DNA from: Eutreptiella sp. 'Long Island Sound 2002' | Taxonomy: Eukaryota > Euglenozoa > Euglenophyceae > Eutreptiales > Eutreptiaceae | Assembly: GCA_964036045.1 (NCBI GenBank) | Contig: OZ038379.1 | Location: forward strand, 183,878,897 to 183,942,896 | Direction of reading: 5' to 3' | DNA length: 64,000 bases | Shown here: one piece after another, positions 3,811-34,045 of the stretch | Layout of the letters: every line of letters starts with the position of its first letter | How positions within the stretch are numbered: position 1 is the stretch's first letter | Notes under the pieces: generated by a model | What the model was told of the DNA's origin: nothing | Databases searched by the model: none | What the model saw: the letters and a program-made list of their open reading frames with translations, nothing else | Made by a program: the position numbers and the translations under genes

Positions 3811-3876
3811 GTCAGTGTCAGGGGTCATGGTCCGGGCTGCGGGTGGGCTGGGGTTGGGGCAGAGGACGTGTGTGGC

Positions 3877-4116: not shown

Positions 4117-4200
4117 TCCATCCATCCATCCATCCATCCATCCATCCATCCATCCATACATCCATCCATCCATCCATCCATCCATCCATCCATCCATCCA
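4117..4200. repeat. (CATC)n microsatellite before LINE A
   Basis: Near-perfect TCCA tetranucleotide array with one interruption (CATACATCC, near 4155). It lies directly against the 5' end of LINE copy A. Confidence 0.97.
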
Positions 4201-4710
4201 TTCCTTAACCGGGCCCTCTTCTGCGAAGGTGGTAGCAAACAGGGAAGGTTTGGGGAGGTATGCCTGTTTTTCTCCTATAGGCTCTGAAAAGCGAGACATC
4301 CAATTCAGTACGAGTGACTGGAATACGTGATCAATGACAAGAGAGTGGAGTAAGGCAGCGAAAGCAAAATCAAGACAGCCAATATCAACCAGGGTACATG
4401 GTGTAACACGTTGTCTCCCATCCAAAACCCGGGCATCCATCCATCCATCCATCCATCCATCCATCCATCCATCCATGCCTTGACCGGGCCCTCTTCTGCG
4501 AAGGTGGTTGCAAACAGGGAAGGTTTGGGGAGGTATGCCTGTTTTTCTCTTATAGGCTCTGAAATGCGAGACGTCCGATACAGTACGAGTGAATGGAGTA
4601 AGTGATCAGTGACAAGAGAGTGGAGAAAGACAGCGAAAGCAAAATCACGAACGTCAATATCAACCAGGGTACATGGTGTAACACACTGTCTCCCTTCCAA
4701 AACCCGGGCA
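4201..4710 (+). promoter_or_regulatory. Two 5' leader monomers of LINE A split by (CATC)n
   Basis: Two copies of a roughly 234-base unit lie at 4201-4433 and 4477-4710. Each runs from TTAACCGGGCCCTCTTCTGCG (or TTGACCGGG...) to CCAAAACCCGGGCA. A 43-base CATC array separates them (4434-4476). Tandem 5' monomers drive transcription in some LINEs (mouse L1 is the known case), so a promoter role is a reasonable inference. No promoter motif is recognised. Confidence 0.6.
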
Positions 4711-6867
4711 AGCGACCTGGGGCCTAGCCACAGGGTGGCAGGTGACTGTCAGGCTCGATATTGGTTTGTGGTAAATAGGAAAGTATCCCTTCCCAATCCT
4801 GGGCGACAGACCTGGGGCCCAGCCACGTGGCGGGTATGCGGATCGATTTGTTTGTGGAATTGATGCAACTCGCCGGTGCCACGTGGTGCTGACGAGTTGC
4901 CGGTACGGTAAAAAGCAGAAACCTGCCGGGCGAGGGTTTCTGCTGGGAGGGCAAAACAGCCCAACACACCAGAACAAAGAAGGTCGGCTCATCCCCAACC
5001 TAGGCAACAGCCCCCGTGGGCCTTGTGGTCCCCGTGTGGCTTCGCAATCATGGTCCGGCCACGCCGCTTGCAGTGGTTGAGCGTGGGCTCCAGCTGTAGG
5101 TGGTCGCGAAAGCACACCCCCCAGACCTCAAGCAGAGCCTCAGGCTGTATCTGAAGAGGATCCACCCTTACTCCGTCTCTCGTGGCGGTTGGGTGAGCGG
5201 GGCGTCGTGGTGTCGTGCGGCCAAGACAAGTAAAGGACAACAAGACTCATGGCACCGCTCATCTGGTGCGCTGACAAAGAGCCGGGAGACCGGGATGACA
5301 GGGTACAGAACGCTGACGAGGTATAGTGAGAGAGCAGCACTAGTAAAGATAGGTAGGTGCAGTAACAATTGTTTCGTTTTCTTCAGTTTTCCGCTATTTT
5401 AGCGCGGCAATTTTCAGCCTAAGAAGCAAACCAGGGTTGGCGCCGGGATGGAAACCCGAGGGGTCAACAATGCCTATGGCGGCTCTGGTTTGTTTCTGCA
5501 AAACAGCAATCTTTCCTTGCGGCGATGCCGTGAAGTTAAGAATGCACATTAGCGCCCTGCAGTGGCTGTGCAGGTGCGAATTGTCAAGCCCTGTCGTCAG
5601 GTGAGCCCCAAAGGACTGGACACCACGGACGAGATGATAACCCCAAGTACCGCAACACCTGCCTGGAACCGGCAGAGCAACCGGGTCCCAGGACAGTGAG
5701 TGCCCAGGGCATTACACAAGAAGCCCAGACATCAACAGCAAAGGGTGAAAGACAAGAAGTCAGGACGGGTGGAAACCACCGACGGTCCGAAAGACAAAAG
5801 GGTGAGAGCAAAAACCAGGAATGGTGACCAAGATGCCCAGCTGAGTTGTGCAGAAGCGCACCAGCGAGGATGCCTGGACCCAGTCACAGCAATGTACAGG
5901 GCCAGATGCCCAGACTCCAAGTGTGGGATACACGGAGCTGGATGCCCAGACTCCAACTGCTACGAGCAGCGAGCTAGATGCCTGGACAAAAAGGAGCAAC
6001 CGCACAATAGTCGAGATGAAGAGGTCCGAGAAAAGAAGATATCACCAGATACCCAGACTTCGAGTGCCACAGGCATGAAGCTGGATGCCTAGACTCCAAC
6101 TGCAAAGAGCAGGGAGCTAGATGCCACCGATCGGAACGACCGGTGATGAGACCCAGACTCAAGAGTGCGGCAAGCACGGAGCTGGATGCCTAGACTCCAC
6201 CTGTCCAAGACAGAGAGGGAGCTAGATGCCTGGAACAACAGACCGCATCACTAGCTACTCCAGAAGACATGAAGCGTCAGAACTGTGCAACCATGTACAA
6301 CCAGGGCAGTTGCCCAGAATCTCATCAATCTGTGCCATGTGTGTGCTTGCAGTGCATAACGGAGCAAGGACTCCACGGAGCGAACAGCAGGCAGACACAG
6401 ATGACATGGTCTGTGCAGAAAACACAAGGTAACGTGAAAAGAGACCACTACGAAAGTGGGCTGGCCACGATGGCCCGAAGAGATAAACAGGGTGACAGTG
6501 CATAAGGTTCACGAGTACCCAGAAACATGAAGCAGGAGAACGAAAATCAAACAAGGTACAGGCAGGCCGCGAGAGCCGGTGCACAGACAGACAGCCACAA
6601 GGGTCACGAGTACCCGAGTGCTGGGGTAAAAAGGCGAGTCAATGGCTGCACAGAGCAGAGAAGAGCAAGAATAAATCTGAGAAGAGGGTCACGAGAGCCC
6701 CATAAGAGAGAAACCGGCAAGCACAGCACCAGCAGCTGGACACGGGTGCCAGACCGCACAACAGCAAAGCAGGCATCGATAGTAAGCTACGATGGCTGCC
6801 GACAGCATGTAAACAGAGACAAAGAGCACTGCGAACACTAGTTCTCTTGATATTATACAGGAACACG
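4711..6867 (+). other. 5' leader of LINE A
   Basis: About 2.2 kb upstream of the polyprotein start, shared with copy B (15715-17871). Open frames of up to 130 codons exist (for example 5700-6092) but show no domain. The 5880-6240 part is a degenerate minisatellite based on GAGCTGGATGCCTAGACTCC and GGAGCTAGATGCC words, spaced by roughly 60-70 bases. Confidence 0.6.
5880..6240 (+). repeat. GATGCC-based degenerate minisatellite in LINE leader
   Basis: Recurring words are GATGCCCAGACTCCAA and GCTAGATGCC(T/C). The same array is at 16884-17244 in copy B. Element N also carries GATGCC-rich tandem repeats (27073-27560), a possible relationship by descent. Confidence 0.6.
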
Positions 6868-9800
6868 ATGCCGCCAGCCATACAAACATCGTGGGGCAAA
6901 GTCCGAGCAGTACAAGGCGATCCCAAGAAAATAAGATGGGAGCCAGAGAATGGAGACGCAGCGACGGAGACCCTGGGACTATGGCTGCAACCAGGCAGTC
7001 ATAGAGCCAGGCTCATGACAATGCACCTCCTCTGTGGAGATGTAGAACAAGCGGTGATAACAGAGATCACCAGGCTCAAACCAGATGTGGAGACGGCGAC
7101 CTGGAACACAATGATGCTGAAGCTGCAACCTGATGAGGAAAAAGATGTAGTACAAGACATAGCCCCGAAGGCAGGAGCACGACTGATGGGGATCCGCAGC
7201 AAGTACTCACTACTAGATACCACAGTAGAAGTGGTAAGACGAGTCTCCGACAAAGGACTGCTGACCACATGGTCAGCGAGCATCATCATGAAGGACGCAG
7301 AGGCCAGGGCGATGTGGAATATGGCATGGCCCAAGATGTATAGAGATCTGGATGCCAGGTCAGAACCAGGGGATGAAGGAGACCCCCCCTCGACAGCCAA
7401 TCAGCAGGAGGAAAGACCCAGAGGAGACATCGATCAGACGGAAATGAAAAAAGTACTGGCCCTACTGGAATCACTGCACGACCTCAACATCCCGGAAGAG
7501 GACAGACTGCAAGCCCTGGTGGCAGAAGAATACGAGGATGAGATTGACATGGCCATACTACTGCTGCCAGCGACGGGCATATACTCACTCAGCAGTATGG
7601 AAAAGAATCGCAGAGGCGACGCAATCAGAAGTCAAATGGTGGGCCAAAGTGCTGGTCAAATATGTGAGATACGTCAGCAGAGACCGAGTAGAGGAAGAGG
7701 ATAAGGCCAGAGCCCAGAGGGCAAAGGAGGCGGAGCACGCCAAACAACAGGATCGAGACAGAGCACAAGCCAGAAAGTGGTCACCCAAAAAGTCATCAAC
7801 GCCGACGGAAAGGAGCAGGAAGTACGCCAAGAACAATCAAGGCGCAGCCCAAAGGGTAATACTGCCAGATGACACTAACAAGACAGATGGCGATGAGGAT
7901 GTAGAGGATCAGGCAGAAGAGGTCCAGGACAACCAGAGGCCCCCGGCAAAGGAGGACACGTCCCATGGCAGTGCAGCAGCCGATACCCCGACAGGAGTGT
8001 GGAAAACGGGTGAAGGAGTCAACAAAGTGGTAGTCCAGCGACTCACGAGAGGAGCCAAACGACTTCGACCAGTGCTCCTGACAGGGTTCCAATACACAGA
8101 TGCAATGGACTCGTACTCGGCAGCAGAAGAAGTGTTTGGGATGTTGTCGCTGGACTTCAGGACATTCAGAGACATGCAGAGACAGTACAATGAAGTAGTC
8201 ATGTTTGTCCCAGGGGAACAACTGGACACGGCCCTATCAGGGGCGTATAGGGACTCATTTCGAGTCTCTGCAGCGAGAGACCCCATGCAGCGGTCAGACG
8301 AAATAGAAATCAAGGAGCTATCCATGCTGGACGGCCTGAAAAAGATTGCGGCAAGGATCCCTTCACCACAGCAAATCAAGCCGGAGGCGGCAGTGGAAGT
8401 GGCAGCGACAGGTGTGGTTGTGGATGCACTCACAGATCAAACAGTGTGGTGTCTCATGCCCCCGTATAGTCCACAACATGCATTCATATCCCTGTGGGGA
8501 TTTGGACAATGCACAGAAATGGCAGGAATAGTGACGTTCACAACAGGCATGGAAGATGCCCAACGGGACATTGAAGAAATAGCAGAGAGACATGGCATAT
8601 GGGGTATTCAGAAAAGTTTTCAAAAGAGACCAGAAGGATCACAGAACGAAAGGCACTCATTAAACTCCACAGAGAGTGAGTGGGACAAAGCAGCAGATCA
8701 GTTTGAGGTGGTCGTCAGAAGCAGAGGACATGGGATGCAGGATGCACCGCCGTGGGTACTGCAACAGCTGACTCAGTCCAAGGCGTACAAAGGGCTCCAC
8801 AAGCAGAATAAAAAACACAAAACAGGGGGCTACCACCCAGTGCAAACGATGGCATGCCCTACTGAGGACAGTGGCACACTAACCCTGGCAGGGGAAAGAG
8901 TACAGCTGCCAAAGAGACGAACAGGAAGACACAGTGAAGTCCTACGTCAAGGGGATCAGAGGGTCGCAGTAACCAGAATCTTGGGTCCCAAATGGACTGG
9001 GAGTGGGACACCGCATGAAATGATGGCACACAGGGTAGTCAAACTACCGGGAAGACCAGCCATTTGCGGCACAGAGCAGCTGCACTCGGGAATACTGCAG
9101 TGTGGGGAGACTAAATTCACACTGTGGACATAAGGAGCAGCGCTTGAGAGAGTGGGAATACTGAATTTCCCCGTGGCACAAGAATGCAATGCAGAGGTCA
9201 CAGTCAAACTCTGGATAGTGATTCAGATATGGAGCCATGGGAGGCAGCACCAAGTACTGGTGAAAGAGACAGGAATCAACAGACGCAGGCGAAAAGAAGA
9301 AACATACATGGGGTCATGGTGGGCAAAAATATGCAACATCACGAAATGGGATCCTCAGGAGCGCCACTGGAGGGGCGAACTGGTAAAATACACAGAGGGG
9401 CATGGCAGAGGGGCGATAAGAATCAACTGGAGTGCGCCACACTGGGGACGACAGCAATATGAACAGCAAGCGTGGAAGGCAATGATGGTACCAGAGAACA
9501 GTCAACAGGTGAAAATGAGATACAGTCTGGTATCAGTGAACTGCCATCAACAAGGCATCAACAGAGAGAAGGAAACACCCACGCGGAAATGGGATGAGGT
9601 GACCACAGTGGTAGTGGAAACCCAAGCGGACGTGCTGGCGTGTCAAGAAATGTGGGGATCGCAGAAGAAGGAGAGACAAAGAACCATAGCAGGATACTGG
9701 ATGCAACAGTCACAGCACACGAAAGTGGGACAGGCCAATGAAGTGTGGGTGCGACTTGCCTGGGCACGAAAACAAGCAGTCCTGCTGGATATACCCAGTG

Positions 9801-12800
9801 CACTCATGGTATTGGTACGCAATGCCATGGGTCTGGGAATAGTAGGATCAGTACACATGGCCCAGAAGAACGAACCCCATGAGTATAAGGGGCAGATGGT
9901 GGAAATACTGGAGACACTGGACAAGACTCCACATGATTGGGAGGCAGTAGGTGGAGACTGGAATCGAGACATACGGTTCCACAGAGAAACCATAGCCACG
10001 CTTCTCACCAAGGGCAGGACCGTAGCGTACATGACAGGTCGCCAACACCTGCCAAAGGACTTCTTCATCATAAACGGAATAAATCAGCAACAGAGAGGGG
10101 TATGGCTATCTCCAGTAGGGGACCACCCAGTGGTATGGGTCAAAGGGGAAGTAGAGCTGGCAGCAGGAGCAGCACAATCAGACGCCAAGCCGGTCACACC
10201 CCTGCAATGGGACAAACACCACAATGTGATGTTCTCAGACTTAGTGGAGGCATTCAGTGGGAGAAGGACAACACCACAGCAATGGATGCAAATGATACGA
10301 GAAACAGTGGTCATCGTGAACAGGGAGTTCAGGAACCCGCTGGAGGAGGAGACAAAGGATGACAGGGAAACAATCCGGCAGCTCAAGAGAGTGGTCCAGG
10401 GCAAAGGCTGGAAAGTAAGAGACAGGGTGCAGCAGTCGCTTACAGCAAAATACTGGGAGACCACAGTGCAGCAGTGGCGTCAAGTATCACAGCCAGGGAT
10501 GGCAGGGAGAACATTGAAAGTTCTCAGATTAAAGGCAGCAAATCCCTTCAAAATACTGCATCAGGTGGAGGACACGGATCGTCAGTGCACAGTGGAAGGG
10601 AAAGAAATTCTCACAGTGGTCAGCAAGGAGTGTCTCAAAAAGTACCCAGTACACACTACAAGAGTACCAGTGGAATGGGTGGAGGACCTAGTGGGAAAAC
10701 ACGTGACGGATGACCGACCACAACGAGTGGAGAGGGCGGCAGAGCTCATCATCCGCAAAGGGGCAGGACCAGTCTCAATAAGTGCTCTGGTCCACAGAAA
10801 AGGAGAGATGGTAAACAAAACAGCAGGAGTGGATGGGTTCACCCCAGCATTTGTAAAACTGTTTGGAATACAAGCAGCACACCAGTTCACCCAGATACTC
10901 AGGATGGGGTACGAACAGTGGCCGGAAGAAGTGAAAGAAGTACTGCACATGACAGCACACAAGTCAGAGGGGTGCAATGTCAACAAGAACACAAGGCCCA
11001 TAAAAATCCTGTCCGCACTACTGCGCATACAGGCAAGACTATTGGCTCCTCTGGTACAAACCATGACCAGACCGAGGTGGTCGGCAGGCAGACAGTTTGC
11101 GGGATACAAAGGCAGCTCAGTGCATGGTATGAGGAGGCTCATGCACATGCTCATCACACAGGCACTAGCCACCAAGGGGGCAGTGGGAGTATTACTGCTG
11201 GACATAGTGGGGGCCTTCGATGAAGTCATGAGACAGTCAATCACAGTCATGGCACAGCAAGGCGCACCCGACGTCAGGGAAACAGTGAACGGAGTGCTGA
11301 AACTGTATGAACATCTGAGAACATACGTAGTCACAGCCTATGGGCTCAGCGAGTGGTACAAGCAGATAGACGGAGTACTGCAGGGGGGGGGGCTGGACCC
11401 CCTACTGTACATCATCCCCATGCACCTCCTGCACCTGGCAGTACGGGAAGCAGGAGTAGGAGTGCGGCTACGGGTCATTCACGGAGAGGAAACAGTAGGC
11501 TCCATGGGGTATGTGGATGACACGGCAGCAGCAGCAGCAGCACCAGCAAAAGAAGTAGCAGAGATTACCCAGCACCTGGCAGACACACTGAGGAGTGCAA
11601 TCCATACACTGGGGCAAAGAAACCACAGTGGGAAAATGAAGGTACTGGGGTTCAAGGTGGAGAACGACAACATAGCAGTGCATAAGTTCAAGGTCAAATG
11701 GGGAGCAGACAAGGTCACCACAGAAAACAGGCATGCACATATAAAACTACTGGGAGGTAATGTCAACATCACAGGAGGATATGCAGCCATAAGGAAGGTC
11801 ATCAAGACATGGACCAATAGAGTGATAGGGCAACTGGCCAGGTGGCCAGTGTCAGCAGGAGTCACCATCGCAGTCATCGAGGGACTGGTGGAGAACCGCA
11901 TGGTGTACAAATGCGTGGTAAACATTCCAACAGAGGGACAGATCAGTGAACTGACAGGCATGGTGACCAGAGCATTCAGAGGAGCGTTTGGCATACCCAG
12001 GAGAACACCCAGAGAATGTGTATATGACATCATAGGGAGACCAGGCCCGGACACACTGATGTGGGTCACAGCCATAGTGGAGTATCACAAGGCGATGAAC
12101 AGCCCCAGTCAGGTGCTGAACGAGACAACCTGGGTACACTGGCAGTCAGAAGATCTACACAGGTGGGACAAGGATGTGAGGAGACTGAGAGCAAGAGTCC
12201 ACAGCATGGGCATCAAGTTCAGCAGGGTGGAATCACAACAAGGAGAGGTATGGACCCTACGGAGGCAGGAGGAAAGCACAGTGGTCAGGGTCTTATACAT
12301 ATTCGGCGATGCCAGCAACATAGAACAGTGGGGGGGAGCAGCAATGGTGGTGGATGAAGAAGGCAATGTGTGGTTGAAGAAACGGGTGACTATAAAGGCA
12401 CAGGGACTCAGTACAAAGCTGGTAGAGGCCACCATGATAGTGATGGCACTGGAGGCAGTGCTCCAAGCCATCAGGAAATCAGAAGTGACAGTCCAGAAGG
12501 TGTGGGCATGGTCGGATAGCCTGGAAGCAATCCAGTCTCTGGCCTCAGGGCAGTTGCAACAACGACCAGCATCCATCATGGACAGAATAATAGCCACGGG
12601 ACAGGAAACAACAGTACCCCTGGAGTGGGGATGGGTACAAGCACAGCATGACAGTCAACAGCAAGACTGGATATCACAGGCGAACCAGGAAATGGACAAG
12701 GAGGCCAAAGAAGGGGCCAAAGGCAGAGGCACACCACTGCGCCTGCCACAAGTGTGGACAGACGGAGCAGTGGTTCTGCCATTTGTGAATGACGAGGTCA

Positions 12801-12856
12801 TCATCGACATAAAAAAAATACCTCCTGCAGCACACGACGTCAGCACTGCGCAGTGA
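6868..12856 (+). pseudogene. LINE A polyprotein, one frameshift and one stop
   Basis: The frame starts at ATG 6868 and matches copy B up to about 7583, where CTCA is duplicated (ACTCACTCAGCAG against ACTCAGCAG in B) and shifts the frame. It then continues to a nonsense codon TAA at 9131-9133 where B has GAA. After that it runs open through endonuclease, reverse transcriptase (Y-V-D-D box near 11510) and RNase H to 12856. It has two extra codons (H-Q) in the endonuclease near 9545 that B lacks. The domains are described under copy B. Confidence 0.93.
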
Positions 12857-13967
12857 AGAGAGTGACAGGACACCAGCACCACAGCAGCGTACATGGACCA
12901 GAGTGTTCCCGGAGGCAAAGGAGGCACAGAAAGCATGGCAAAGACTGCAACCGCTGAGCATCAGAGACTGGGGGGAAATCAGAACATGGAGTCTGTATGC
13001 AGAGGCAGCAGAGTGGGAATGGGATGGAAAGCAACAACACTGTGAAAAATGTGGGCTGTGGTGTGAGAGCGTCAGGCACCATCAACTGCATGAATGCATA
13101 GTGACGAAAACGAGGATATACCTATGCGTGCAGGAGGTGTGCCAGATACTCATCAGTGAGGGGGTACAGCCAGGACGTATCACCCCGACATGGGGGGGGG
13201 TTCGGATACAAGGGAAGCAGCAAGTAGACATAGTATGGTCCCATCCCTCCAGAGCGAGTGCACTGCAACCACAGAAACACTCAAACAGAACAGTGTGGCC
13301 AGTGTGGCTGGGCATAGGTCCAGTGCAAGGAATCACAGTGCCACTAGCGAGAGTGGGGGCACAGCACCCCAAATCAGTGGTGTTCAGAACCCTAGAAGCA
13401 GCATATGCCATGGTGTATGCAGCGGAGGAATCAGAGATGAAGATGGACCAGCACAACAGACTACTGGCAGACTGGCAAGCAGGAACCAACTGCCGAATAG
13501 CAGTAGGTCAAGTGAAAAAACGAAAAAGAGCAGTCAGACCCATGGCCCTCCACACATGGTGGACCCTCATCTCAGCAACAAGGCCACGAACAGATACAGT
13601 CGTGGCACTACTGGTGCAATCTCCAGAAGGCATAGGAGCAGCACAATGGACTAGGAGAGTACCGGATGTGTGGGTAGGAGAAGATGGAGGAGACAAGGGT
13701 CAGATTATACGAGAAGCGCAAAGCAGAGGATCACAGGGGAGAGGGGTGTATTGGTGTCTGGTTGGCAGTGCGTGGGAATGGACAGGGTGCAGAATGGATA
13801 GTGGCATGCAGCTGTGGTGTCTGGAGATAAACGAGCAGTTTCTCAAGTGGGTGATCAGGGACCGAGATACAGTGAAGGGAGTGCGGCCAGGCGTGTGCAG
13901 GAACGCTGTGACTCTTCTACAGTACATCACGAAGCCAAAGGAAAAGGAGGCAAAGGCTCTGCCATGA
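12819..13967 (+). CDS. LINE A downstream zinc-motif reading frame
   Basis: Same protein as in copies B and C. It is offset from the polyprotein frame by one base after an A8 run at 12811-12818. It keeps the C-x2-C-x3-C-x4-H-H motif and has only scattered substitutions relative to B (for example Cys for Trp after Y-L, near 13125). Confidence 0.6.
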   Translation, partial: YLLQHTTSALRSEESDRTPAPQQRTWTRVFPEAKEAQKAWQRLQPLSIRDWGEIRTWSLYAEAAEWEWDGKQQHCEKCGLWCESVRHHQLHECIVTKTRIYLCVQEVCQILISEGVQPGRITPTWGGVRIQGKQQVDIVWSHPSRASALQPQKHSNRTVWPVWLGIGPVQGITVPLARVGAQHPKSVVFRTLEAAYAMVYAAEESEMKMDQHNRLLADWQAGTNCRIAVGQVKKRKRAVRPMALHTWWTLISATRPRTDTVVALLVQSPEGIGAAQWTRRVPDVWVGEDGGDKGQIIREAQSRGSQGRGVYWCLVGSAWEWTGCRMDSGMQLWCLEINEQFLKWVIRDRDTVKGVRPGVCRNAVTLLQYITKPKEKEAKALP

Positions 13968-14795
13968 GGTACGCTCGCAGCGCAACGTGGGCCAAAGGAG
14001 ACAGAGGCCCAAAAGGAGGTACCAAGGGGTACCCCAAACTATGGCAGCAGCCATACACGAGACGATGAGCAACGTCGGACCATTAACTGCGGCCAGCAAC
14101 AGACATGGATGCCCAGGTGCAGTATATGAAATGTCCAGCAACGGACACAGAAGCCCAGGTGACGTATATAAAAAGTCCTGTCAACGGTCAAGTCCCAACA
14201 GAAGGGAACAGCCGTATGTATGTCCAGTCAGTCAAACGTCGTGCACAGGTTCAGATCAGGTACTCCAGATACCAGAAGCAGCCACAGTGCAGCAGGGCAT
14301 TCCCGAGCACGGGCAGCACACCACAGAACCACCATGTGGCAGTGGGACGCTGTAACATTGCAGACAGACAGAGCCTCTCTGCACAGAGCACTGCCGCAAC
14401 GCAGCAGGCCCGGGCACAAAGGCCCCAGAGAAACAGTGCAGCAGCAGAGACATCACATGAGCAAATGGTGCAGTGCGTGTCCTGTGCAGGGGGTAGGCAG
14501 GGGAAAGAAGAGTCAGGATCACACAAAAACAGGTGCAACAATCAATCCACAGCAAAAACAACATCTTCCAGAAAGACATGAGAAAAACCAGAAAAGGTAC
14601 CTGCCGGTACAAGCCAGTGGCAGGTTGTTTTGTTTTCTTTGGCAGTACAAGTTCAAGAAGACGTGAAAATTTTCGGGGGCACGGGTAATACAAGGGTAAG
14701 GGAAGCGCACCACCGAAGAGAAGATGGGTAATCTCCGGGAGGGGACCAGTACGACCCTTGCCAAAGCGTTTTTCACAAAACAAAACAAAACAAAA
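13968..14795 (+). other. 3' untranslated region and tail of LINE A
   Basis: Contains overlapping open frames of 120-160 codons that are shared with B and C. Differences between A/B and C in the longest of these are mostly amino-acid changing, which argues against coding. The last 75 bases (GAAGATGGGTAATCTCCGGG, GGGACCAGTACGACC, CCAAAGCGTTTTTCAC, then CAAAA units) are shared with the 3' end of element N and are the likely signal recognised by the reverse transcriptase. Confidence 0.65.
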
Positions 14796-14814
14796 CATCC
14801 ATCCATCCATCCAT

Positions 14815-14850
<36 letters not shown>

Positions 14851-14905
14851 CCATCCATCCATCCATCCATCCATCCATCCATCTACCCACCCACCTACCT
14901 ACCTG
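14796..14905. repeat. (CATC)n then (CTACC)n after LINE A
   Basis: TCCA units to about 14882, with one TCCG variant near 14839, followed by CTACCCACCCACCTACCTACCTGTC. The same CATC-to-CTACC transition follows LINE C (33951-34045) and is present at the empty site (35103-35140). Confidence 0.95.
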
Positions 14906-15146
14906 TCGCGGGCCATTCGTGCACGGGTCCCCAGCAGAAGTGGTGTTGTGGACGGGGGCCCGTCGTGCAGGTCTCTGGCATGGATCATGTGTTGCGGGGG
15001 CCCACTGGCAGGGGATTATTAAAATGGCCGTACACCGTAGGAGGCTGGGGGGGTTACCTCTCCCCCGGACCCCCCCCCCCCCGGCTCCAGACCAAAGAAA
15101 TTTACCGTTGGTCTTGTCAGTCCACTTTTTGGGCCATGTTGTTGTA
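14906..15146. repeat. Second copy of the array's left flank
   Basis: Nearly identical to 3877-4116. Its left junction reads CTACCTGTC|GCGGGCC, joining the right-flank microsatellite to intron sequence. This marks the breakpoint of an 11.03 kb tandem duplication. Confidence 0.9.
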
Positions 15147-15230
15147 TCCATCCATCCATCCATCCATCCATCCATCCATCCATCCATCCATCCATCCATC
15201 CATCCATCCATCCATCCATCCATCCATCCA
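15147..15230. repeat. (CATC)n before LINE B
   Basis: Uninterrupted TCCA array, same position relative to the element as at 4117-4200. Confidence 0.97.
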
Positions 15231-23850: not shown

Positions 23851-24961
23851 AGAGAGTGACAGGACACCAGCACCACAGCAGCGTACATGGACCAGAGTGT
23901 TCCCGGAAGCAAAGGAGGCACAGAAAGCATGGCAAAGACTGCAACCACTGAGCATAAGAGACTGGGGAGAAATCAGAACATGGAGTCTGTATGCAGAGGC
24001 AGCAGAGTGGGAATGGGATGGAAAGCAACAACACTGTGAAAAATGTGGGCTGTGGTGTGAGAGCGTCAGGCACCATCAACTGCATGAATGCATAGTGACG
24101 AAAACGAGGATATACCTATGGGTGCAGGAGGTGTGCCAGATACTCATCAGTGAGGGGGTACAGCCAGGACGTATCACCCCGACATGGGGAGGGGTTCGGA
24201 TACAAGGGAAGCAGCAAGTAGACATAGTATGGTCCCATCCCTCCAGAGCGAGTGCACTGCAACCACAGAAACACTCAAACAGAACAGTGTGGCCAGTGTG
24301 GCTGGGCATAGGTCCAGTGCAAGGAATCACAGTGCCACTAGCGAGAGTGGGGGCACAGCACCCCAAATCAGTGGTGTTCAGAACCCTAGAAGCAGCATAT
24401 GCCATAGTGTATGCAGCGGAGGAATCAGAGATGAAGATGGACCAGCACAACAGACTACTGGCAGACTGGCAAGCAGGAACCAACTGCAGAATAGCAGTAG
24501 GTCAAGTGAAAAAACGAAAAAGAGCAGTCAGACCCATGGCCCTCCACACATGGTGGACCCTCATCTCAGCAACAAGGCCACGAACAGATACAGTCGTGGC
24601 ACTACTCGTGCAATCTCCAGAAGGCATAGGAGCAGCAGAATGGACTAGGAGAGTACCGGATGTGTGGGTAGGAGAAGATGGAGGAGACAAGGGTCAGATT
24701 ATACGAGAAGCGCAAAGCAGAGGATCACAGGGGAGAGGGGTGTATTGGTGTCTGGTTGGCAGTGCGTGGGAATGGACAGGGTGCAGAATGGATAGTGGCA
24801 TGCAGCTGTGGTGTCTGGAGATAAACGAGCAGTTTCTCAAGTGGGTGATCAGGGACCGAGATACAGTGAAGGGAGTGCGGCCAGGCGTGTGCAGGAACGC
24901 TGTGACTCTTCTACAGTACATCACGAAGCCAAAGGAAAAGGAGGCAAAGGCTCTGCCATGA
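23813..24961 (+). CDS. LINE B downstream zinc-motif protein, out of frame by one base
   Basis: The 382-codon frame has no early ATG (first candidate start is GTG 23897) and overlaps the end of the polyprotein. In copy C the same protein is fused in frame to RNase H because its A run has 7 instead of 8 residues. A metal-binding motif C-x2-C-x3-C-x4-H-H-x2-H-x-C sits at about 24034-24092, followed by a long Trp-rich region of unknown fold. The motif suggests nucleic-acid binding, as in LINE C-terminal knuckles. Either A and B inherited a one-base insertion or the A8 run (23805-23812) is a recoding site. Confidence 0.7.
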   Translation, partial: YLLQHTTSALRSEESDRTPAPQQRTWTRVFPEAKEAQKAWQRLQPLSIRDWGEIRTWSLYAEAAEWEWDGKQQHCEKCGLWCESVRHHQLHECIVTKTRIYLWVQEVCQILISEGVQPGRITPTWGGVRIQGKQQVDIVWSHPSRASALQPQKHSNRTVWPVWLGIGPVQGITVPLARVGAQHPKSVVFRTLEAAYAIVYAAEESEMKMDQHNRLLADWQAGTNCRIAVGQVKKRKRAVRPMALHTWWTLISATRPRTDTVVALLVQSPEGIGAAEWTRRVPDVWVGEDGGDKGQIIREAQSRGSQGRGVYWCLVGSAWEWTGCRMDSGMQLWCLEINEQFLKWVIRDRDTVKGVRPGVCRNAVTLLQYITKPKEKEAKALP

Positions 24962-25789
24962 GGTACGCTCGCAGCGCAACGTGGGCCAAAGGAGACAGAG
25001 GCCCAAAAGGAGGTACCAAGGGGTACCCCAAACTATGGCAGCAGCCATACACGAGACGATGAGCAACGTCGGACCATTAACTGCAGCCAACAACAGGCAT
25101 GGATGCCCAGGTGCAGTATATGAAATGTCCAGCAACGGACACAGAAGCCCAGGTGACGTATATAAAAAGTCCTGTCAACGGTCAAGTCCCAACAGAAGGG
25201 AACAGCCGTATGTATGTCCAGTCAGTCAAACGTCGTGCACAGGTTCAGATCAGGTACTCCAGATACCAGAAGCAGCCACAGTGCAGCAGGGCATTCCCGA
25301 GCACGGGCAGCACACCACAGAACCACCATGTGGCAGTGGGACGCTGTAACATTGCAGACAGACAGAGCCTCTCTGCACAGAGCACTGCCGCAACGCAGCA
25401 GGCCCGGGCACAAAGGCCCCAGAGAAACAGTGCAGCAGCAGAGACATCACATGAGCAAATGGTGCAGTGCGTGTCCTGTGCAGGGGGTAGGCAGGGGAAA
25501 GAAGAGTCAGGATCACACAAAAACAGGTGCAACAATCAATCCACAGCAAAAACAACATCTTCCAGAAAGACATGAGAAAAACCAGAAAAGGTACCTGCCG
25601 GTACAAGCCAGTGGCAGGTTGTTTTGTTTTCTTTGGCAGTACAAGTTCAAGAAGACGTGAAAATTTTCGGGGGCACGGGTAATACAAGGGTAAGGGAAGC
25701 GCACCACCGAAGAGAAGATGGGTAATCTCCGGGAGGGGACCAGTACGACCCTGGCCAAAGCGTTTTTCACAAAACAAAACAAAACAAAA
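24962..25789 (+). other. 3' untranslated region and tail of LINE B
   Basis: Same layout as in A: no supported coding frame, conserved terminal 75 bases, and four CAAAA units directly against CATC at 25790. Confidence 0.65.
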
Positions 25790-25887
25790 CATCCATCCAT
25801 CCATCCATCCATCCATCCATCCATCCATCCATCCATCCATCCATCCATCCATCCATCCATCCATCCATCCATCCATCCATCCATCCA
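25790..25887. repeat. (CATC)n between LINE B and element N
   Basis: About 98 bases of pure TCCA. There is no CTACC segment or flank here; element N starts immediately. Confidence 0.97.
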
Positions 25888-26269
25888 TTCATTAACCGGG
25901 CCCTCTTCTGCGAAGGTGGCAAGGGAAAAGGTACAAGGAAGGAAGGTTGCCTTTTGCTGTACATGCGGAGCGTAACACATTTGGAGACCCCGTTGGAGAA
26001 CGCCAACGAGTAAGTGTTGCCGAACACAATGGAGAGCAGGGAATAGAGAAGATGGTTGATGTGGAAGAAGGAACATCGTGCAACCGCTGTTTAGTGAGTC
26101 AATTTGGAGTTTGTCAAGTCGGATAAGCGGTCCAGTCAATGATGGTTGAGTTTGATGAGGGTTGAATATTGGTTAATGAACTAAACGATAAAGACATAGC
26201 AGCTGGTGGAAAACTCAATTGCTGCCCATATATCTGAACATAAGTAGGATGCAGTCATTTGTCAGCACG

Positions 26270-27072
26270 AGTGGTCCACTTATTGGACAGCCTTTGTGCT
26301 GCATTCATTTAATGCGTTGAGTGCTGTACTTATTTGGAAGCTTAGTACTTCATTCTCTTGGCGGCATGTGTTCTACACTCATTAGCCAGCCTATGTGCTG
26401 CACTTATTTGGCAGTGTGCGCTAAACTCCTTTAGCAGCAAAAGTGATGCTTTTCGTTGATATGTGTATTTGATGTGTGATTTGCATGTGTCTTGCATTAT
26501 TGGGCGGCCTGTGTGGTGCATTTATTTAGCAGCTTGTATGCTGCAATCGTTTGGCGACTGGAGTGTTGCACTCATCTGGCACCCGCTGTGCTGCACTCAC
26601 TTGGAGGCCAGTGGGCTTCAGTTATGCAGCAGCTTGGCAGCGAGTGTGCTGCTCTTATTAAATTGCTTGAGTGCGAATACATTTGAAAGCCTATGTGGTG
26701 CATTTCTATGCAACATGCATGAGGCGTGCAGTAGGAGAGTGGCTATGCCGCATTTGTCTAGCATCAGGTGTGCTGCATGCATTTTGCTGCCTCTGTATGT
26801 ACTTAGCAACAGGTGTGCTGTGTTCATTTGACAGCGAGTGTGAGGCATATTTTTGGTTACCTGTGTGTTGCAAAGATTTGGCAGTGTGAGTGCCGAACTT
26901 ATATGACAGCTTGTGTGCTGCTGTCATTCAATTACGCATGCGCTTCAGTCGTTTGGGTGCTGCCATTGTCTGGCACTGTGAGTGTTGCATTCATTTAGCA
27001 GCAGTGGTGGTGCATTCAAATGGGCGAGTGTGTGATGTTTGCATCCAACAGCCAGTGTGCTGCATTTATTTG
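26270..27072 (+). repeat. Element N array 1, degenerate TGTGCTGCA repeats
   Basis: Degenerate units of roughly 30 bases built on CAGCCTGTGTGCTGCA-CTCATTTGG. Units drift too much for a fixed period. The array is related to array 3. Confidence 0.7.
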
Positions 27073-27560
27073 AGCGAGCCATGAGCAAGCAGGATGCCTG
27101 GATGTCGAGTGCCAAGGGTACCATGCCAGATGCCGGGGTGTGGGATGCCAAAGGCACCCAGCCCGATGCCCCATGAGCGAGCGGGATGCCTGGACATTGA
27201 GTGCCAAGGGTGCCATGCCAGATGCCGGGCCGTGGGATGCCAAAGGCACCCAGCCCGATGCCCCATGAGTGAGCGGGATGCCTGGACATTGAGTGCCAAT
27301 GGTGCCATGCCAGATGCCGGGATGTGGGATGCCAAAGGCACCCAGCCCGATGCCCCGTCAGCGAGCAGGATGCCTGGACATTGAGTGCCAAGGGTGCCAT
27401 GCCAGATGCCGGGATGTGGGATGCCAAAGGCACCCAGCCCGATGCCCCGTCAGCGAGCAGGATGCCTGGACATTGAGTGCCAAGGGTGCCGTGCCAGATG
27501 CTGGGATGTGGGATGCCAAAGGCACCCAGCCCGATGCCCACAGGATTGGGTGCCTCACGT
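27073..27560 (+). repeat. Element N array 2, 92-bp minisatellite
   Basis: The word GCCCGATGCCC recurs at 27162, 27254, 27346, 27438 and 27530, an exact 92-base spacing. Five units are well conserved and each contains GATGCCAAAGGCACCCAGCC. Flanking half units extend it slightly. It differs in sequence from the other three arrays. Confidence 0.92.
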
Positions 27561-27639
27561 GCAACATGATGCCTAGACACTGCAGGCCAGAGGCAGGGAG
27601 ATGCCCAGAAGTGAGGATGCCCGGCAGGACGGAGAGAAT

Positions 27640-30300
27640 GGGTATGAATGCGTTAGCCTTGCGAGTGGTGCGCTGCATTTATTTGGCAGCCTGTGGGCCG
27701 CAATTGTCTGGCAGCCTGTGTGCTGCATACATTTGGCGTCGAGTGAACTGCATTTATTTGGCAGCCTGTGTGCTGCACTTGTCTAGCGGCCCATGTGCTG
27801 CACAAATTTGGCGTCCAGAGAATAGCATTTATTTGGCGGCCTGTGTGCTGCACTTGTCTGGCAGCCTGTGTGCGGCACAAATGAAGCGTCAAGTGAACTG
27901 CATCTATTTGGCAGCCTGTGTGCTGCACAAGTCGGGCAGCTTGTGTGCTGCATATATTTGGCGTCTGATGCAATGCATTTATTTGGCAGCTTGGGTGCTC
28001 CTCGCGTCTAGCAGCCTGTGTGCTGCACAAATTTGGCGTTTGGTGAACTGCATTTATTTGGCAGCCTGTGTGCTGCACATGTCTTGCAGCCTGTGTGCTG
28101 CATAAATTTGGCGCCCAGTGAACTGCATTTATTTGGCAGCCTGTGTGCTGCACAAGTCGGGCAGCTTGTGTGCTGCATATATTTGGCGTCTGGTGCAATG
28201 CATTTATTTGGCAGCTTGGGTGCTCCTCGCGTCTAGCAGCCTGTGTGCTGCACAAATTTGGCGTTTGGTGAACTGCATTTATTTGGCAGCCTGTGTGCTG
28301 CACATGTCTTGCAGCCTGTGTGCTGCATAAATTTGGCGTCTGATGCAATGCATTTATTTGGCAGCCTGTGTGCTGCACTTGTGTAGCAGCCCGTGCGCTG
28401 CATGAAATTGGCGTGTGGTGAAATGCATTCATTCGACAGCCTGTGTGCTGCACAAGTCGGGCAGCCAGTGTGCTGCATAAATTTGGCGTCTGGTGCAATG
28501 CATTTATCCGGCAGCCTGTGTGCTGCACATGTCTAGCAGCCTGTGCGCTGCATAAAATTGGCGTGTGGTGAAATGCATTCATTTGGCAGCCTGTGTGCTG
28601 CACAAGTCGGGCAGCCTGTGTGCAGCATGTATTTGGCGTTTGGTGCAATGCATTTATTTGGCAGCCTGGGTGCTCCTCACGTCTAGCAGCCTGTGTGCTG
28701 CACAAATTTGGCGTTTGGTGAACTGCATTTATTTGGCAGCCTGTGTGCTGCATAAATTTGGCGTCTGATGCAATGCATTTATTTGGCAGCCTGTGTGCTG
28801 CACTTGTGTAGCAGCCCGTGCGCTGCATGAAATTGGCGTGTGGTGAAATGCATTCATTCGACAGCCTGTGTGCTGCACCAGTCGGGCAGCCAGAGTGCTG
28901 CATAAATTTGGCTTCTGGTGAAATGCATTTATTTGACAGCCTGTGTGCTCCTCACGTCTAGCAGCCTGCGTGCTGCACACATTTGGCGTTTGGTGAACTG
29001 CATTTATTTGGCAGCCTCAGTGCTGCACCTGTCGAGCAGCCTGTTTGCTGCATAATTTAGGCGTGCGGTGAAACGTGATCATTTGGCAGCCTGTGTGCTG
29101 CACATGTACGGCAGCCTCTGTGCTGCATAATTTTGGCGTCTGTTGAAATGCGTTCATTTGGCAGCCTGTGTGCTGCATAAGTTTGGTGTCTGGTGGAATG
29201 CATTTATTTGACAGTGTGTGTGCACATGTCTCGCAGCCCGTGTGGTGCATAAAATTGGCGTCTGATGAAATGCATTCGGTTGGCAGCCTGTGTGCTGCAC
29301 ACGTCTAGCAGCCTGTGTGCTGCACAAATTTGGCGCTTGGTGAATTGTATTTATTTGGCTGCCTGTGTGCTGCACATGTACGGCAGCCTATGTGCTGCAT
29401 AATTTTGGCGTCTGTTGAAATACGTTCATTTGGCAGCCTGTGTGCTGCAGTTGTCTGGTAGCCTGTGTGCTGCATTAGTTTGGTGTCTGGTGAACTGCAT
29501 TTCTTTGGCAGCCCATATGTGGCACACATCTGGCAGCCGTGTGCTGCATAAATCTGAAGTCTGGTGAACTGCATTTCTTTGGCAGCCTGTGTGCTGCACT
29601 TGTCTAGTTGCCGTGTTTGGCAGCCTGTGTGCTGCATTTACTAGGCAGCCTGTGTGGTGTGTTTAGTTGGTAGCTAGTGTGAGGTGTGTGTGTGGTAGCC
29701 TGTGCGCTGCATTTATTTGGCAGCCTGTGTGCTGCACATGTGTGGTAGCCTGTGTGCTGCATAAATTTGGCGTCTAGTGAAACGCATTTATTTGGCAGCC
29801 TGTGTGCTGCACATGTCTGGCAGCCCGTGTGCTGCATAAGTTTGGTGTCTGGTGAACTGCATATCTTAGGCAGCATGTGGCACACACTGGCAGCCCGTGT
29901 GATTCACTTGTCTGGCAGCCGTGTTCTGCATAAATTTGGCCTGCAGGGGAACTGTATTTATTTGGCAGCCTGTATGCTGCTTGAATTTGGCGTCTGGTGG
30001 ACTATATTCAATTGGTAGCCTATGTGCTGCACTTGTCTGGTGGCCTGTGTGCTGCATAAGTTTGGCGTCCAGTGAACTACATTCAGTTGGCAGCCCGTGT
30101 GTTGCACGTGTCTGGTAGCCTATGTGCTGCATTTACTAGGCAGCCTGTGTGGTGTGTTCAGTTGGTAGCCAGTGTGAGGCGTGCTTGTGGTAGCCTGCGT
30201 GCTGCAATGATTTTGCGGCATGAGTGCTGCACCCGTTTGGCAGTTTGGGTGCCGCCTTCATCCAACTCCTTTGTGCTGCAATCTTGTGTTGCCATTAACT
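27640..30300 (+). repeat. Element N array 3, 75-bp (3 x 25) minisatellite
   Basis: The core word is TTTGGCAGCCTGTGTGCTGCA. A typical long unit is 75 bases, made of three related 25-base subunits ending in AACTGCATTTA or ACAAATTTGGCGT. Because the unit is a multiple of three, long open frames appear on both strands (for example 416 codons on the minus strand at 27653-28903); these are by-products of the period. Local duplications are visible, such as 27905-28060 against 28140-28300. Confidence 0.92.
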
Positions 30301-30369
30301 AGCAGTGTGTGTATTGCATTCATTTCGTAGCTTGGGTGTTGTATTCATATAGCACGTGCGATGCATGTA

Positions 30370-31400
30370 TTTGACGTTTGTGCCCAGCATGGAATTCAGA
30401 TTGGTGTTTGTGTTCAGACCACATTTGAATTGACGTTTATGCCATGAATGGGTCTTACATGGACATGCACGCTTGATGTAATTCTGAACCGTCTTTGGAT
30501 CGACATTTGTGCCATGCATGACTTTTGGATTGACATCTGTGCTAGGCATAGACGTCGGTTAGACATTAGTGTTCCGAACCGACTTTGGATCGGCGGTATT
30601 GCTGTGCAAGGGCTTTGGCTTGACATTTGTACCAAGCGCTGTCTTTGTAGTGATATGTGTATTAAGAACAGGCTTTGGCATAACATGTATGCAATAACAT
30701 GTATGCAGTAAAAGGGCATTTGATTGACATACATGCCTTGAGGGATGATGTTGCGCCCTGAATGGGCTTTGGACTGACATTTGTGCCCAGCATGGAATTC
30801 AGCTTGATGGTTGTGTTCAAAACAAGTTTGAATTCACGTTTGCGCCATGAATGGGTTTTACAAGAGCATGCACGCTTGATGTATTTCTGAACAGACTTTG
30901 GATGGACATTTGTGCCATGCATGGGTTTTGGATTGACGTTTGTACTAAGATAGACATTGGATGGATATTAGTGTTCCGAACCGACTTTAAATCCTTGTTT
31001 CTGCCATGCAAGGGCTTTGGCTTGACATTTGTGCCAAGCGTCGCAGTGAAGGGGCATTGGATTGACATACACGCCTTGAAGGCTTTGATTGATGTTTTGT
31101 GTCCTGAATGGGCTATAGATGGACATTGGTACCCAGCATAGAATTTGGATTGATGATTTGGTATTGACATACACACATTAATAACTTTGATAGATGATAG
31201 TGAATGGGCGCCGGATTGGCATAAGTACCCAGCATGGAGTTGGATTGATACTTGTGCTCTGAGCAGACTTTGGATTGACATTTCTTCCCATGAGTGGGCG
31301 TTTGATTCATCTTTGTACCAAGCATTTACTTTGGGTTGATACCTGTGTTTGTGATCTGCGCAGTGGGTAGACTTTTATGCTGCGAATGGGTATTGGCATA
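30370..31400 (+). repeat. Element N array 4, TTTGGATTGACATTTGTGCC repeats
   Basis: Degenerate units of about 30 bases with a superimposed higher-order repeat of roughly 405 bases: the CCCAGCATGGAATTCAG word occurs near 30393 and 30797, and the CGAACCGACTTT word near 30576 and 30976. Confidence 0.85.
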
Positions 31401-31703
31401 AACAGGGCGGTGCGTTGTTTGAGTGCACTGCACACACACATTTATCCGCATGAGCGGTTTGGAACTGGCAGTTAGTGCCCATATTCTGGTTGTTTGGCAA
31501 CAGATTTATGGCTTTCGTTGCTAGATGGCAGTTTGTTTTGTTTTATTTGGCCAGACAGCCAAGACACTTGATGTGTGGGGAACATAGGACGAGATAATGG
31601 ACAAAGGAGGGGGAAAGGATGCCACCAGAAGATGGGTATACCCGGGAGGGGACCAGTACGAATCTGGCCAAAGCGTTTTTAACAAAACAAAACAAAACAA
31701 AAA

Positions 31704-31757
31704 CATCCATCCATCCATCCATCCATCCATCCATCCATCCATCCATCCATCCATCCA
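31704..31757. repeat. (CATC)n between element N and LINE C
   Basis: 54 bases of TCCA. LINE C sequence begins directly after it with no 5' leader. Confidence 0.97.
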
Positions 31758-31758
31758 A

Positions 31759-33123
31759 CAAGAAACAACAGTGCCCCTGGAGTGGGGATGGGTACAGGCA
31801 CAGCATGACAGTCAACAGCAAGACTGGATATCGCAGGCGAACCAGGAAATGGACAAGGAGGCCAAAGAAGGGGCCAAAGGCAGAGGCACACCACTGCGCC
31901 TGCCAAAAGTGTGGACAGACGGAACAGTGGTTCTGCCATTAGTGAATGACGAGGTCATCATCGACATAAAAAAATACCTCCTGCAGCACACGACGTCAGC
32001 ACTGCGCAGTGAAGAGAGCGACAGGACACCAGCACCACAGCAGCGTACATGGACCAGAGTGTTCCCGGAAGCAAAGGAGGCACAGAAAGCATGGCAAAGA
32101 CTGCAACCGCTGAGCATCAGAGACTGGGGGGAAATCAGAACATGGAGTCTGTATGCAGAGGCAGCAGAGTGGGAATGGGATGGAAAGCAACAACACTGTG
32201 AAAAATGTGGGCTGTGGTGCGAGAGTGTCAGGCACCATCAACTGCATGAATGCATCGTTACGAAAACGAGGATATACCTATGGGTGCAGGAGGTGTGCCA
32301 GATACTCATCAGTGAAGGAGTACAGCCAGGACGTATCACCCCGACATGGGGGGGGGTTCGGATACAAGGGAAGCAGCAAGTAGACATGGTATGGTCCCAT
32401 CCCTCCAGAGCGAGTGCACTGCAACCACAGAAACACTCAAACAGAACAGTGTGGCCAGTGTGGCTGGGCATAGGTCCAGTGCAAGGAATCACAGTGCCAC
32501 TAGCGAGAGTGGGGGTACAGCACCCCAAATCAGTGGTGTTCAGAACCCTAGAAGCAGCATATGCCATAGTGTATGCAGCGGAGGAATCAGAGATGAAGAC
32601 GGACCAGCACAACAGACTACTGGCAGACTGGCAAGCAGGAACCAACTGCAGAATAGCAGTAGGTCAAGTGAAAAAACGAAAAAGAGCAGTCAAACCCATG
32701 GCCCTCCACACATGGTGGACCCTCATCTCAGCAACAAGGCCGCGAACAGATACAGTCGTGGCACTACTGGTGCAATCTCCAGAGGGCATAGGAGCAGCAG
32801 AATGGACCAGGAGAGTACCGGATGTGTGGGTAGGAGAAGATGGAGGGGACAAGGGTCGGGTTATACGAGAAGCGCAAAGCAGAGGATCACAGGGGAGAGG
32901 GGTGTACTGGTGTCTGGTTGGCAGTGCGTGGGAATGGACAGGGTGCAGAATGGATAGTGGCATGCAGCTGTGGTGTCTGGAGATAAACGAGCAGTTCGTC
33001 AAGTGGGTGATCAGGGACCGAGATACAGTGAAGGGAGTGCGGCCAGACGTGTGCAGGAACGCTGTGACTCTTCTACATGACATCACGAAGTCAAAGGAAA
33101 AGGAGGCAAAGGCTCTGCCATGA
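31759..33123 (+). pseudogene. LINE C fragment: RNase H end fused to zinc-motif protein
   Basis: One uninterrupted frame from the RNase H terminus (G-W-V-Q-A-Q-H-D, near 31785) through the zinc motif to TGA at 33121-33123. The A run at 31968-31974 has 7 A where A and B have 8. This shows that a joined polyprotein plus C-terminal zinc domain is a possible, perhaps ancestral, arrangement. It lacks the start codon, endonuclease and reverse transcriptase, so it is dead. Confidence 0.85.
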
Positions 33124-33950
33124 GGTACGCTCGCAGCGCAACGTGGGCCAAAGGAGACAGAGGCCCAAAAGGAGGTACCAAGGGGTACCCCAAACAATGG
33201 CAGCAGCCATACACGAGACGATGAGCAACGTCGGACCATTAACTGCAGCCAGCAACAGGCATGGATGCCCAGGTGCAGTATATGAAATGTCCAGCAACGG
33301 ACTCAGAAGCCCAGGTGACGTATATAAAAAGTCCTGTCAACGGTCAAGTCCCAACAGAAGGGAGCAGCCGTATGTATGTCCAGTCAGTCAAACGTCGTGC
33401 ACAGGTTCAGATCAGGTACTCCAGATACCAGAAGCAGCCACAGTGCAGCAGGGCATTCCCGAGCACGGGCAGCACACCACAGGACCACCATGTGGCAGTG
33501 GGACGTTGTAACATCACAGACAGACAAAGCCTCTCTGCACAGGGCACTGCCACAACGCATAAGGCCCTGGCACAAAGGCCCCAGACAAACAGTGCAGCAG
33601 CAGAGACATCACATGAGCAAATGGTGCAGTGCGTGTCCAGTGCAGGGGGTAGGCAGGGGAAAGAAGAGTCAGGATCACACAAAAACAGGTGCAACAATCA
33701 ATCCACAGCAAAAACAACATCTTTCAGAAAGACATGAGAAAAACCAGAAAAGGTACCTGCCGGTACAAGCTAGTGGCAGGTTGTTTTGTTTTCTTTGGCA
33801 GTATAAGTTCGAGAAGACGTGAAAATTTTCGGGAGCACGGGTAATACAAAGGTAAGGGAAGCACACCACCGAAGAGAAGATGGGTAATCTCCGGGAGGGG
33901 ACCAGTACGACCCTGGCCAAAGCGTTTTTCACAAAACAAAACAAAACAAA
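33124..33950 (+). other. 3' untranslated region and tail of LINE C
   Basis: Aligned with 13968-14795. Differences from A and B in the longest shared open frame (33261-33737) are largely amino-acid changing, consistent with non-coding sequence. Confidence 0.65.
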
Positions 33951-34045
33951 ACATCCATCCATCCATCCATCCATCCATCCATCCATCCATCCATCCATCC
34001 ATCCATCCATCCATCTACCCACCCACCTACCTACCTGTCTATCTC
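33951..34045. repeat. (CATC)n-(CTACC)n after LINE C, right end of array
   Basis: TCCA units to about 34014, then CTACCCACCCACCTACCTACCTGTCTATCTCC. It continues into unduplicated intron sequence, so this is the original right side of the target. Confidence 0.95.

Follow-up and report, generated by a model that had tools for sequence, protein, structure and literature searches.

In this study, we describe a 64-kb stretch of the genome of Eutreptiella sp. 'Long Island Sound 2002' (hereafter the window) in which four elements of one retrotransposon family, A, B, N and C, lie in the same orientation with a (CATC)n array at each junction. Every exact four-base tandem array of at least four copies within the window is CATC, on the + strand, and at this threshold none was found on the minus strand. 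Apart from one in an unoccupied paralogue of the target (35102-35122), these arrays flank the elements or adjoin the additional 5′ monomer carried by A and B. At their 3′ ends, all four elements have a common last part and a (CAAAA)4-like tail followed directly by CATC, and the arrays at the outer junctions of the elements measure 54-103 bp. The original prediction had noted this layout, with a single orientation, (CATC)n at the junctions and the CAAAA tail against the array, and had read it as head-to-tail stacking of a non-LTR (long terminal repeat) retrotransposon; both the layout and the stacking hold in the window.

Read from left to right, with every feature on the + strand, the stack begins with a flank (3872..4115) whose final ~16 bp correspond to the paralogue's left side and which is copied at 14904-15145. 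Behind it lie the 5′ array of A (4116..4201), an extra 5′ monomer (4202..4433), a further (CATC)n that separates it from the second 5′ monomer (4434..4476), element A proper from its 5′ monomer to its CAAAA tail (4477..14795), and the array on its 3′ side (14796..14883). The second copy of the left flank (14904..15145), which marks the probable duplication of A and B discussed below, leads into the 5′ array of B (15146..15231), the extra 5′ monomer of B with the (CATC)n behind it (15232..15510, the array at 15464-15510) and element B proper (15511..25789). An array separates B from element N (25790..25892) and another separates N from C (31704..31757). Element C (31758..33951) is 5′-truncated, ~97% like A and B, and placed inside the array that follows N; its own 3′ array (33952..34018) gives way to the right flank (34019..34204), which is the right part of the target repeat. 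The extra 232-bp 5′ monomers with their (CATC)n (4202-4476 and 15232-15510) were seen before A and B only and are ~91-92% like the monomer that follows. At the other genomic loci that we fetched from the assembly (L numbers), a single monomer is present at those 5′ ends in which the join to the element body is visible (L079, L080, L082, L083, L091, L094 and L095). Besides the arrays and the 5′ monomers, no long direct repeats were found at the element ends, and no LTRs.

The unoccupied paralogue (35086..35311, + strand) gives a view of the site without an element. Its left ~16 bp match the end of A's left flank and its right part matches the sequence that follows C, with 77% identity over 216 aligned columns, and it carries (TCCA)5, 20 bp in length, at the equivalent place. 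Because this element-free copy holds (TCCA)5, the array in the window was there before the elements arrived, at least in a short form. What was hit here is a CATC array that happened to lie within a dispersed repeat, in agreement with the earlier proposal of insertion into a pre-existing simple repeat.

Over 10.3 kb, elements A and B share 99.3% identity (53 substitutions, 11 gap columns). Further, the ~240 bp preceding A's array are repeated in front of B's with zero substitutions and one indel in a C run, and a frame-shifting difference near the end of the main open reading frame (ORF) is common to A and B and absent from C and from the database protein P0005. On the strength of this identity, the recurring flank and the common frame shift, A and B are probably a single insertion copied by an 11-kb segmental duplication, as judged from sequence comparison. 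The differences between them, 21 non-synonymous and 9 synonymous in the main ORF and 10 and 0 in the C-terminal part, are what one would expect of copies drifting free of selection. Since A and B look duplicated, the number of independent insertions was cut from four to three, namely A/B, N and C. Successive insertions re-using the same array, as originally proposed, are therefore upheld for A/B, N and C, and the step from A to B is more likely a duplication. It is also possible that A and B are two haplotypes set end to end by the assembler, and their near-identity, succession and duplicated flank are what a stack of misassembled repeats could look like. However, head-to-tail copies are found elsewhere in arrays of other units (L056, L061, L069, L082, L084, L094 and L095), and the targeting result given below is independent of the window. 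Because the pattern recurs on many other chromosomes, we regard an assembly artefact, raised at the outset as a danger to the claim, as unlikely.

The autonomous element is ~10.3 kb long. In B, an open frame of 2046 residues (17710-23850) has its first Met at 17872, and the main ORF from this Met (17872..23850, + strand) encodes ~900 N-terminal residues of unknown kind followed by endonuclease-, reverse transcriptase (RT)- and RNase H-like parts; the database protein P0002 has the same start region. The RT domain (21976..22590) matches R2 retrotransposon RT chains in PDB (E=1.8e-9) and Pfam RVT_1 with an E of 6.9e-7, which stands at the Pfam cut-off. At E<=1 its PDB matches include R2 chains and not L1, which is no more than a hint on where the RT belongs; in Dualen/RandI, which have both endonucleases and RNase H, the RT stands between the two groups. 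Together with 5′-truncated copies that have a common 3′ end, a short tail and no LTRs, this LINE/R2-type RT identifies the family as a long interspersed nuclear element (LINE), confirming the predicted non-LTR class. The region before the RT (20485..21219) resembles an apurinic/apyrimidinic endonuclease (APE)-type domain, with motifs N, QE, GGDWN, KDFF and GDH. In alignment, the columns N, QE, GGD(W/F)N, D(F/Y)F and DH are common to the window protein, P0002 and P0007, and the endonuclease of P0007 matches L1-EN in PDB. Pfam gave weak values only (E=0.094 and 0.04), the match of the window region to Exo_endo_phos standing at E=0.094, PDB yielded no match to it, and its structure model reached a predicted local distance difference test score (pLDDT) of 32 only. 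An RNase H-like region after the RT (23293..23694), where I-group LINEs have such a domain, was assigned by eye from motifs and has no Pfam RNase H match at E<=1. The C-terminal part (23807..24961), with a CCHC-like finger, is in another frame in A and B and continuous with the upstream frame in C. It has no Pfam match, and its AlphaFold2 model is poor (pLDDT 46) with no PDB fold match at E<=0.001; the C-terminal PD-(D/E)xK domain that marks LINEs with a restriction-like endonuclease (R2, NeSL, HERO, MoTeR), and that would have given a second, Dualen-like endonuclease, was not recognised in this part by Pfam or by the PDB fold search of that model. In A, the reading frame is disrupted at three points: a 4-bp insertion, a stop in frame and the frame shift near the end of the main ORF. 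Protein relatives are few and unnamed; viral_contigs, genome_contigs and phages yielded no relatives.

To place the window in its genomic context, we surveyed its own 2.28-Gb assembly (2205 contigs) with the family 3′ end, stripped of CATC, as query, and obtained 42 matches among 40 scored of 190 candidates. An array was called by Tandem Repeats Finder (TRF) at a minimum score of 30 and a period of up to 60, lying within 25 bp of the junction. At the 30 loci thus obtained, a tandem array starts within 25 bp in 30/30 flanks, as against 87/1000 random windows. Under a stricter setting (at least four copies, unit of at most 25 bp) the random control fell to 38/1000, and the elements stood at 30/30 by any array listed rather than by the best one. 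Eight further loci and second copies inside loci brought the total to 43 sequence-distinct 3′ junctions, of which 41 have an array within 25 bp; a further junction, at L099, lies in a 107-bp satellite. The junctions of two more copies, the remaining one in L061 and the third in L073/L078, were left out of the 43 as identical to others in the compared bases, and both abut arrays. Periods at the junctions were 5 (14 junctions), 4 (8), 12 (6), 10 (3), 6 (2) and 15 (2), with 9, 13, 16, 22, 23 and 42 seen once each, so that at least 12 period classes are represented in addition to 107.

This diversity bears directly on the original prediction, according to which the family has tetranucleotide specificity and its endonuclease would recognise (CATC)n alone. 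Every junction in the window is CATC in a single register, and the unoccupied paralogue is CATC as well. Across the genome, however, CATC is found at only 8 of the 43 distinct junctions, two of them being those of A and B, and the remaining units range from 5 to 107 bp; nor, within the fetched stretches, was the family present at any of the 42 fetched CATC loci, which cover 43 of the 52 listed (CATC)5+ arrays (C1, and C2 up to 174.8 Mb). The 8/43 count led us to reject CATC as the sole target, and a CATC-specific LINE now has next to no probability. Most copies do lie outside CATC, which was to have spoken against the proposal and to the letter does so; the copies are found in other tandem arrays and not at ordinary sites. 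Telomere-specific targeting is not what we found either, the window being ~9.6 Mb from the end of the 193.5-Mb contig C2 and the units mutually unrelated.

We sought 5′ ends in 20 stretches at the distance expected for the start of a full-length copy; a 5′ end is present in nine, each within 18 bp of an array. Where both sides could be read (8 copies), the repeats match in 8/8, the copy's own pairing ranking best in seven and second in one, for which another locus is also CATC. Shuffled 5′/3′ pairings reached the observed sum 6 times in 100000. By eye, all 18 sequence-distinct 5′ ends from the fetched loci and the window follow C-rich repeats, and 5′-truncated copies are flanked on both sides by the same array at L050, at the second copies of L061, L062, L064 and L068, and at L073/L078 and L077. 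Because the same local repeat lies on both sides in 8/8, the array is the target and is not carried in by the element. This pairing also decides a further explanation, that the array is the element's own tail, derived from the 3′ end of its RNA or from slippage as for the RTE elements of Lepidoptera. We weighed it seriously, given that other retroelement 3′ ends with CATC seem to exist in this genome: 32 of the 42 fetched CATC arrays follow one or the other of two conserved sequences, including the 3′ end of a distant LINE. In the window family, however, the unit varies by locus and equals the 5′-side unit of the same copy, and the constant tail is CAAAA (four units in 25/43), so that, unless the 5′ arrays too derive from the element, the idea was rejected for this family and is highly improbable.

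Element N (25893..31703, + strand) extends these observations to a second element. It is 5.8 kb long, starts with the first ~31 bp of the family (family 5′ end to ~25919), ends with the family 3′ end (31627-31703, with weaker similarity from ~31527), and has an unrelated middle. Its interior is satellite-rich: at 27079-30231, a 92-bp unit is present five times, together with ~2.5 kb of 25/50/75-bp repeats. The 5′ part of N has 24 matches in the genome, five of them at 100% over 401 bp, one being the window's own. Elsewhere in the genome N was read at its 5′ ends, and all five that were fetched stand, by eye, behind arrays, with units CCCATA, CCCCAT, a 12-mer, CCATC and CCCCAT. Given the 24 matches and the differing units behind 5/5 ends, N is a real non-autonomous partner.

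Both strand and register of insertion are strongly constrained. In the first 100 bases past the junction, C exceeds G in 42/43 cases (mean 48 vs 6), the C-rich strand being the sense strand, and the flank begins with CAT in 34/43, where 5.2 would be expected at random register (0/20000 simulations reach 34). Such a register would also suit an ordinary LINE with a short cut-site word, for which repetition is not required and arrays merely offer the word often, or from which insertions elsewhere were lost. In its favor are the CAT register itself, the many cut sites that arrays hold, and one copy (L105) outside arrays. Sites with CAT[CGT]C, however, adjoin an array in only 70 of 819 cases (8.5%) under the same settings, compared with 41/43 junctions. 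Further, the 22-, 23- and 107-bp units hold the word rarely per base, and it is hard to see how all other sites could have been purged in a genome of 2.28 Gb. We therefore consider a short-word LINE doubtful, though it is the most serious of the alternatives. The difference between 41/43 and 8.5% suggests that repetition is needed rather than the mere number of sites, unless arrays are far more open to the enzyme.

It has also to be considered that insertion makes the array, a short or single target being amplified during or after integration by slippage or repeated repair. The CATC arrays at the outer element junctions in the window (54-103 bp) are longer than those at 41 of the 42 fetched CATC loci (20-36 bp; the remaining one is 80 bp) and than the 20 bp of the paralogue, as this would predict. 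Longer arrays are perhaps just better targets, however, and the strongly diverged arrays of 12-, 22-, 23- and 107-bp units look old and reach far past the element. Such amplification appears improbable to us.

Taken together, it is very likely that we are dealing with a non-LTR retrotransposon family (the ~10.3-kb element and the 5.8-kb N) that integrates inside tandem arrays of varied unit, provided that the sense strand is C-rich and offers a CAT(N)C-like word at the cut; repetition itself is, by appearance, required as well. Several points weigh against this. The survey scored 40 of 190 candidates, and the 43 junctions are not all independent, with clusters on C5, C13, C14, C15 and C24. L105 has no array in its 3′ flank. 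No 5′ end was present in 11 of the 20 stretches, which were left unscored for targeting, and pairing was judged from the 5′ and 3′ ends of the copies. The truncated copy at L071 has a single-copy-like flank with no array directly on its 5′ side, and the first copy of L068 has 30 bp on this side followed by an inverted GATGG array; upstream of the first copies of L061, L062 and L064 and of L065, the sequence is element-like or could not be placed and speaks neither way. In some cases the flanking repeats have possibly grown after insertion. The CA of CAT is possibly the last part of the tail, so that the preferred word can safely be stated only as lying around T(N)C on the sense strand. Finally, the APE-type assignment of the putative endonuclease comes from motifs, given the weak Pfam match, the lack of a PDB match and the pLDDT of 32.

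Place, orientation, register, matched flanks, partner element and array re-use are direct observations; as to the mechanism of integration, we infer that an APE-type endonuclease would nick the G-rich strand at a CAT(N)C-like word, and that the G-rich 3′ end so exposed would serve as primer, with reverse transcription beginning at the (CAAAA)n tail. Another unit of the same array would then receive the 5′ end of the complementary DNA, through annealing or through a second cut where the word recurs. In this way a single array could take up successive insertions in one orientation and build head-to-tail stacks. A bolder proposition, which we hold to have an even chance of being right, is that what the element targets is tandem repetition as such, whatever the sequence. 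Arrays ranging from a 4-bp microsatellite to a 107-bp satellite might all serve, provided that one strand is C-rich and holds a minimal CAT(N)C word, because a second unit would be needed for the 5′ junction. The element and N would then re-use arrays and may lengthen them, in a mutual feedback between repeats and element.

The CATC loci provide a lead beyond the window family. In the 150 bp upstream of their arrays, 32/42 fall in two shared sequences (21 and 11 loci); the downstream groups were 7 and 2 with the low-complexity filter on, and with the filter off 34 and 18 loci had partners. Four loci (L019, L020, L023 and L043) represent the 3′ end of a distantly related LINE family, which terminates in (CATC)5-6. 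Three of them match the window protein at ~25-31% identity (E 1e-14 to 1e-20), and the fourth matches the 3′ DNA of the others at 97.5%. In 4/4, the (CATC)5-6 is followed by C-rich simple repeats. Related LINEs in this genome may share the targeting habit, each with its own tail; since the loci were picked for holding CATC, this is a lead and not a count. Seven other loci (L011, L014, L021, L029, L035, L036 and L038) have a short sequence related to the last 50 bp of the distant family, then CATC, within long CT-rich repeats, and may be copies of one larger repeat. The 21 loci with a common sequence ending at CATC (L001, L010, L013, L015, L016, L024, L025, L027, L028, L030-L034, L037, L039, L041, L044 and L046-L048) represent an unnamed repeat family, perhaps one resembling short interspersed nuclear elements.

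Target-specific LINEs are well known. Waldo, Dong and others are microsatellite-specific, and Waldo and the R1 clade use an APE-type endonuclease; TRAS and SART, of the R1 clade, are APE-type LINEs at telomeric TTAGG. The window family resembles TRAS/SART in its endonuclease, as far as its motifs indicate, and in being a LINE in a G-rich/C-rich tandem repeat; TRAS/SART differ in keeping to one unit at chromosome ends. Among the systems nearest to it in arrangement are the telomere-targeted LINEs MoTeR1/MoTeR2 (Magnaporthe) and FoTeR (Fusarium) (PMC7367193, PMC12857005), which are likewise inserted in one orientation in a tandem repeat and form stacks of full and 5′-truncated copies parted by repeat tracts. 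MoTeR2 has both ends in common with MoTeR1 and not the middle (PMC7367193, PMC12857005), just as N is a shorter partner with both family ends and a different middle, and the growth of MoTeR/FoTeR arrays by D-loop or break repair offers a model for the A/B duplication. In contrast to the family described here, with many units, internal places and APE-like motifs, MoTeR/FoTeR target the telomere repeat and have a C-terminal restriction-like endonuclease. Togen at (TG)n and some HERO families are microsatellite-specific LINEs, most with a restriction-like endonuclease (PMC4640811); they too have a simple-repeat target and a fixed strand, although such LINEs are reported for one unit each, as opposed to 12 period classes of 4-42 bp and a 107-bp satellite here. 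L1-CS, with 91% of its copies in the Cuscuta satellite CUS-TR24 (PMC8091179), is similarly a LINE lineage gathered in tandem DNA via a cut-site word within the unit, yet in one satellite rather than in arrays of unrelated units. Lepidopteran RTE elements, which make microsatellites (PMC2887409), resemble the window family in that LINE 3′ ends adjoin microsatellites. Their repeat is part of the element's 3′ end (PMC2887409), whereas here it is common to both flanks of a locus, and a constant microsatellite belonging to the element's 3′ end is not found, the unit differing by locus and matching the 5′ side. LINEs confined to a single microsatellite or to the telomere repeat have thus been described, but our searches of the open-licence literature gave no account of one that takes arrays of many, indeed of almost any, unit.

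Target-specific LINEs are sorted by the single sequence they hit. A family that keeps to one strand and register while taking a dozen or more unrelated units allows recognition of a short word to be parted from recognition of repetition, and makes the joining of the 5′ end, a poorly known last step of LINE integration, testable. Should a second unit be needed, integration would depend on how many copies of the unit are present, whatever its sequence. If true, this would explain how elements pile up in micro- and minisatellites and why such arrays change.

Rfam and tRNA scans of the window returned no matches. Outside the stack, an open frame on the + strand (60768-61445) holds a stretch that we take to be metacaspase-like, which would suggest a plant, a fungus or a protist as host. 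Three copies of a ~250-bp dispersed repeat, 91-92% alike, are found at 49778-50030, 54501-54754 and 58148-58399, and direct-repeat pairs at 44695-45117/46974-47388 (91% alike) and 40413-40654/44331-44570 (97% alike). Low-complexity arrays of the TTTTTTTGGAA type lie at 51281-51425 and 54065-54219.

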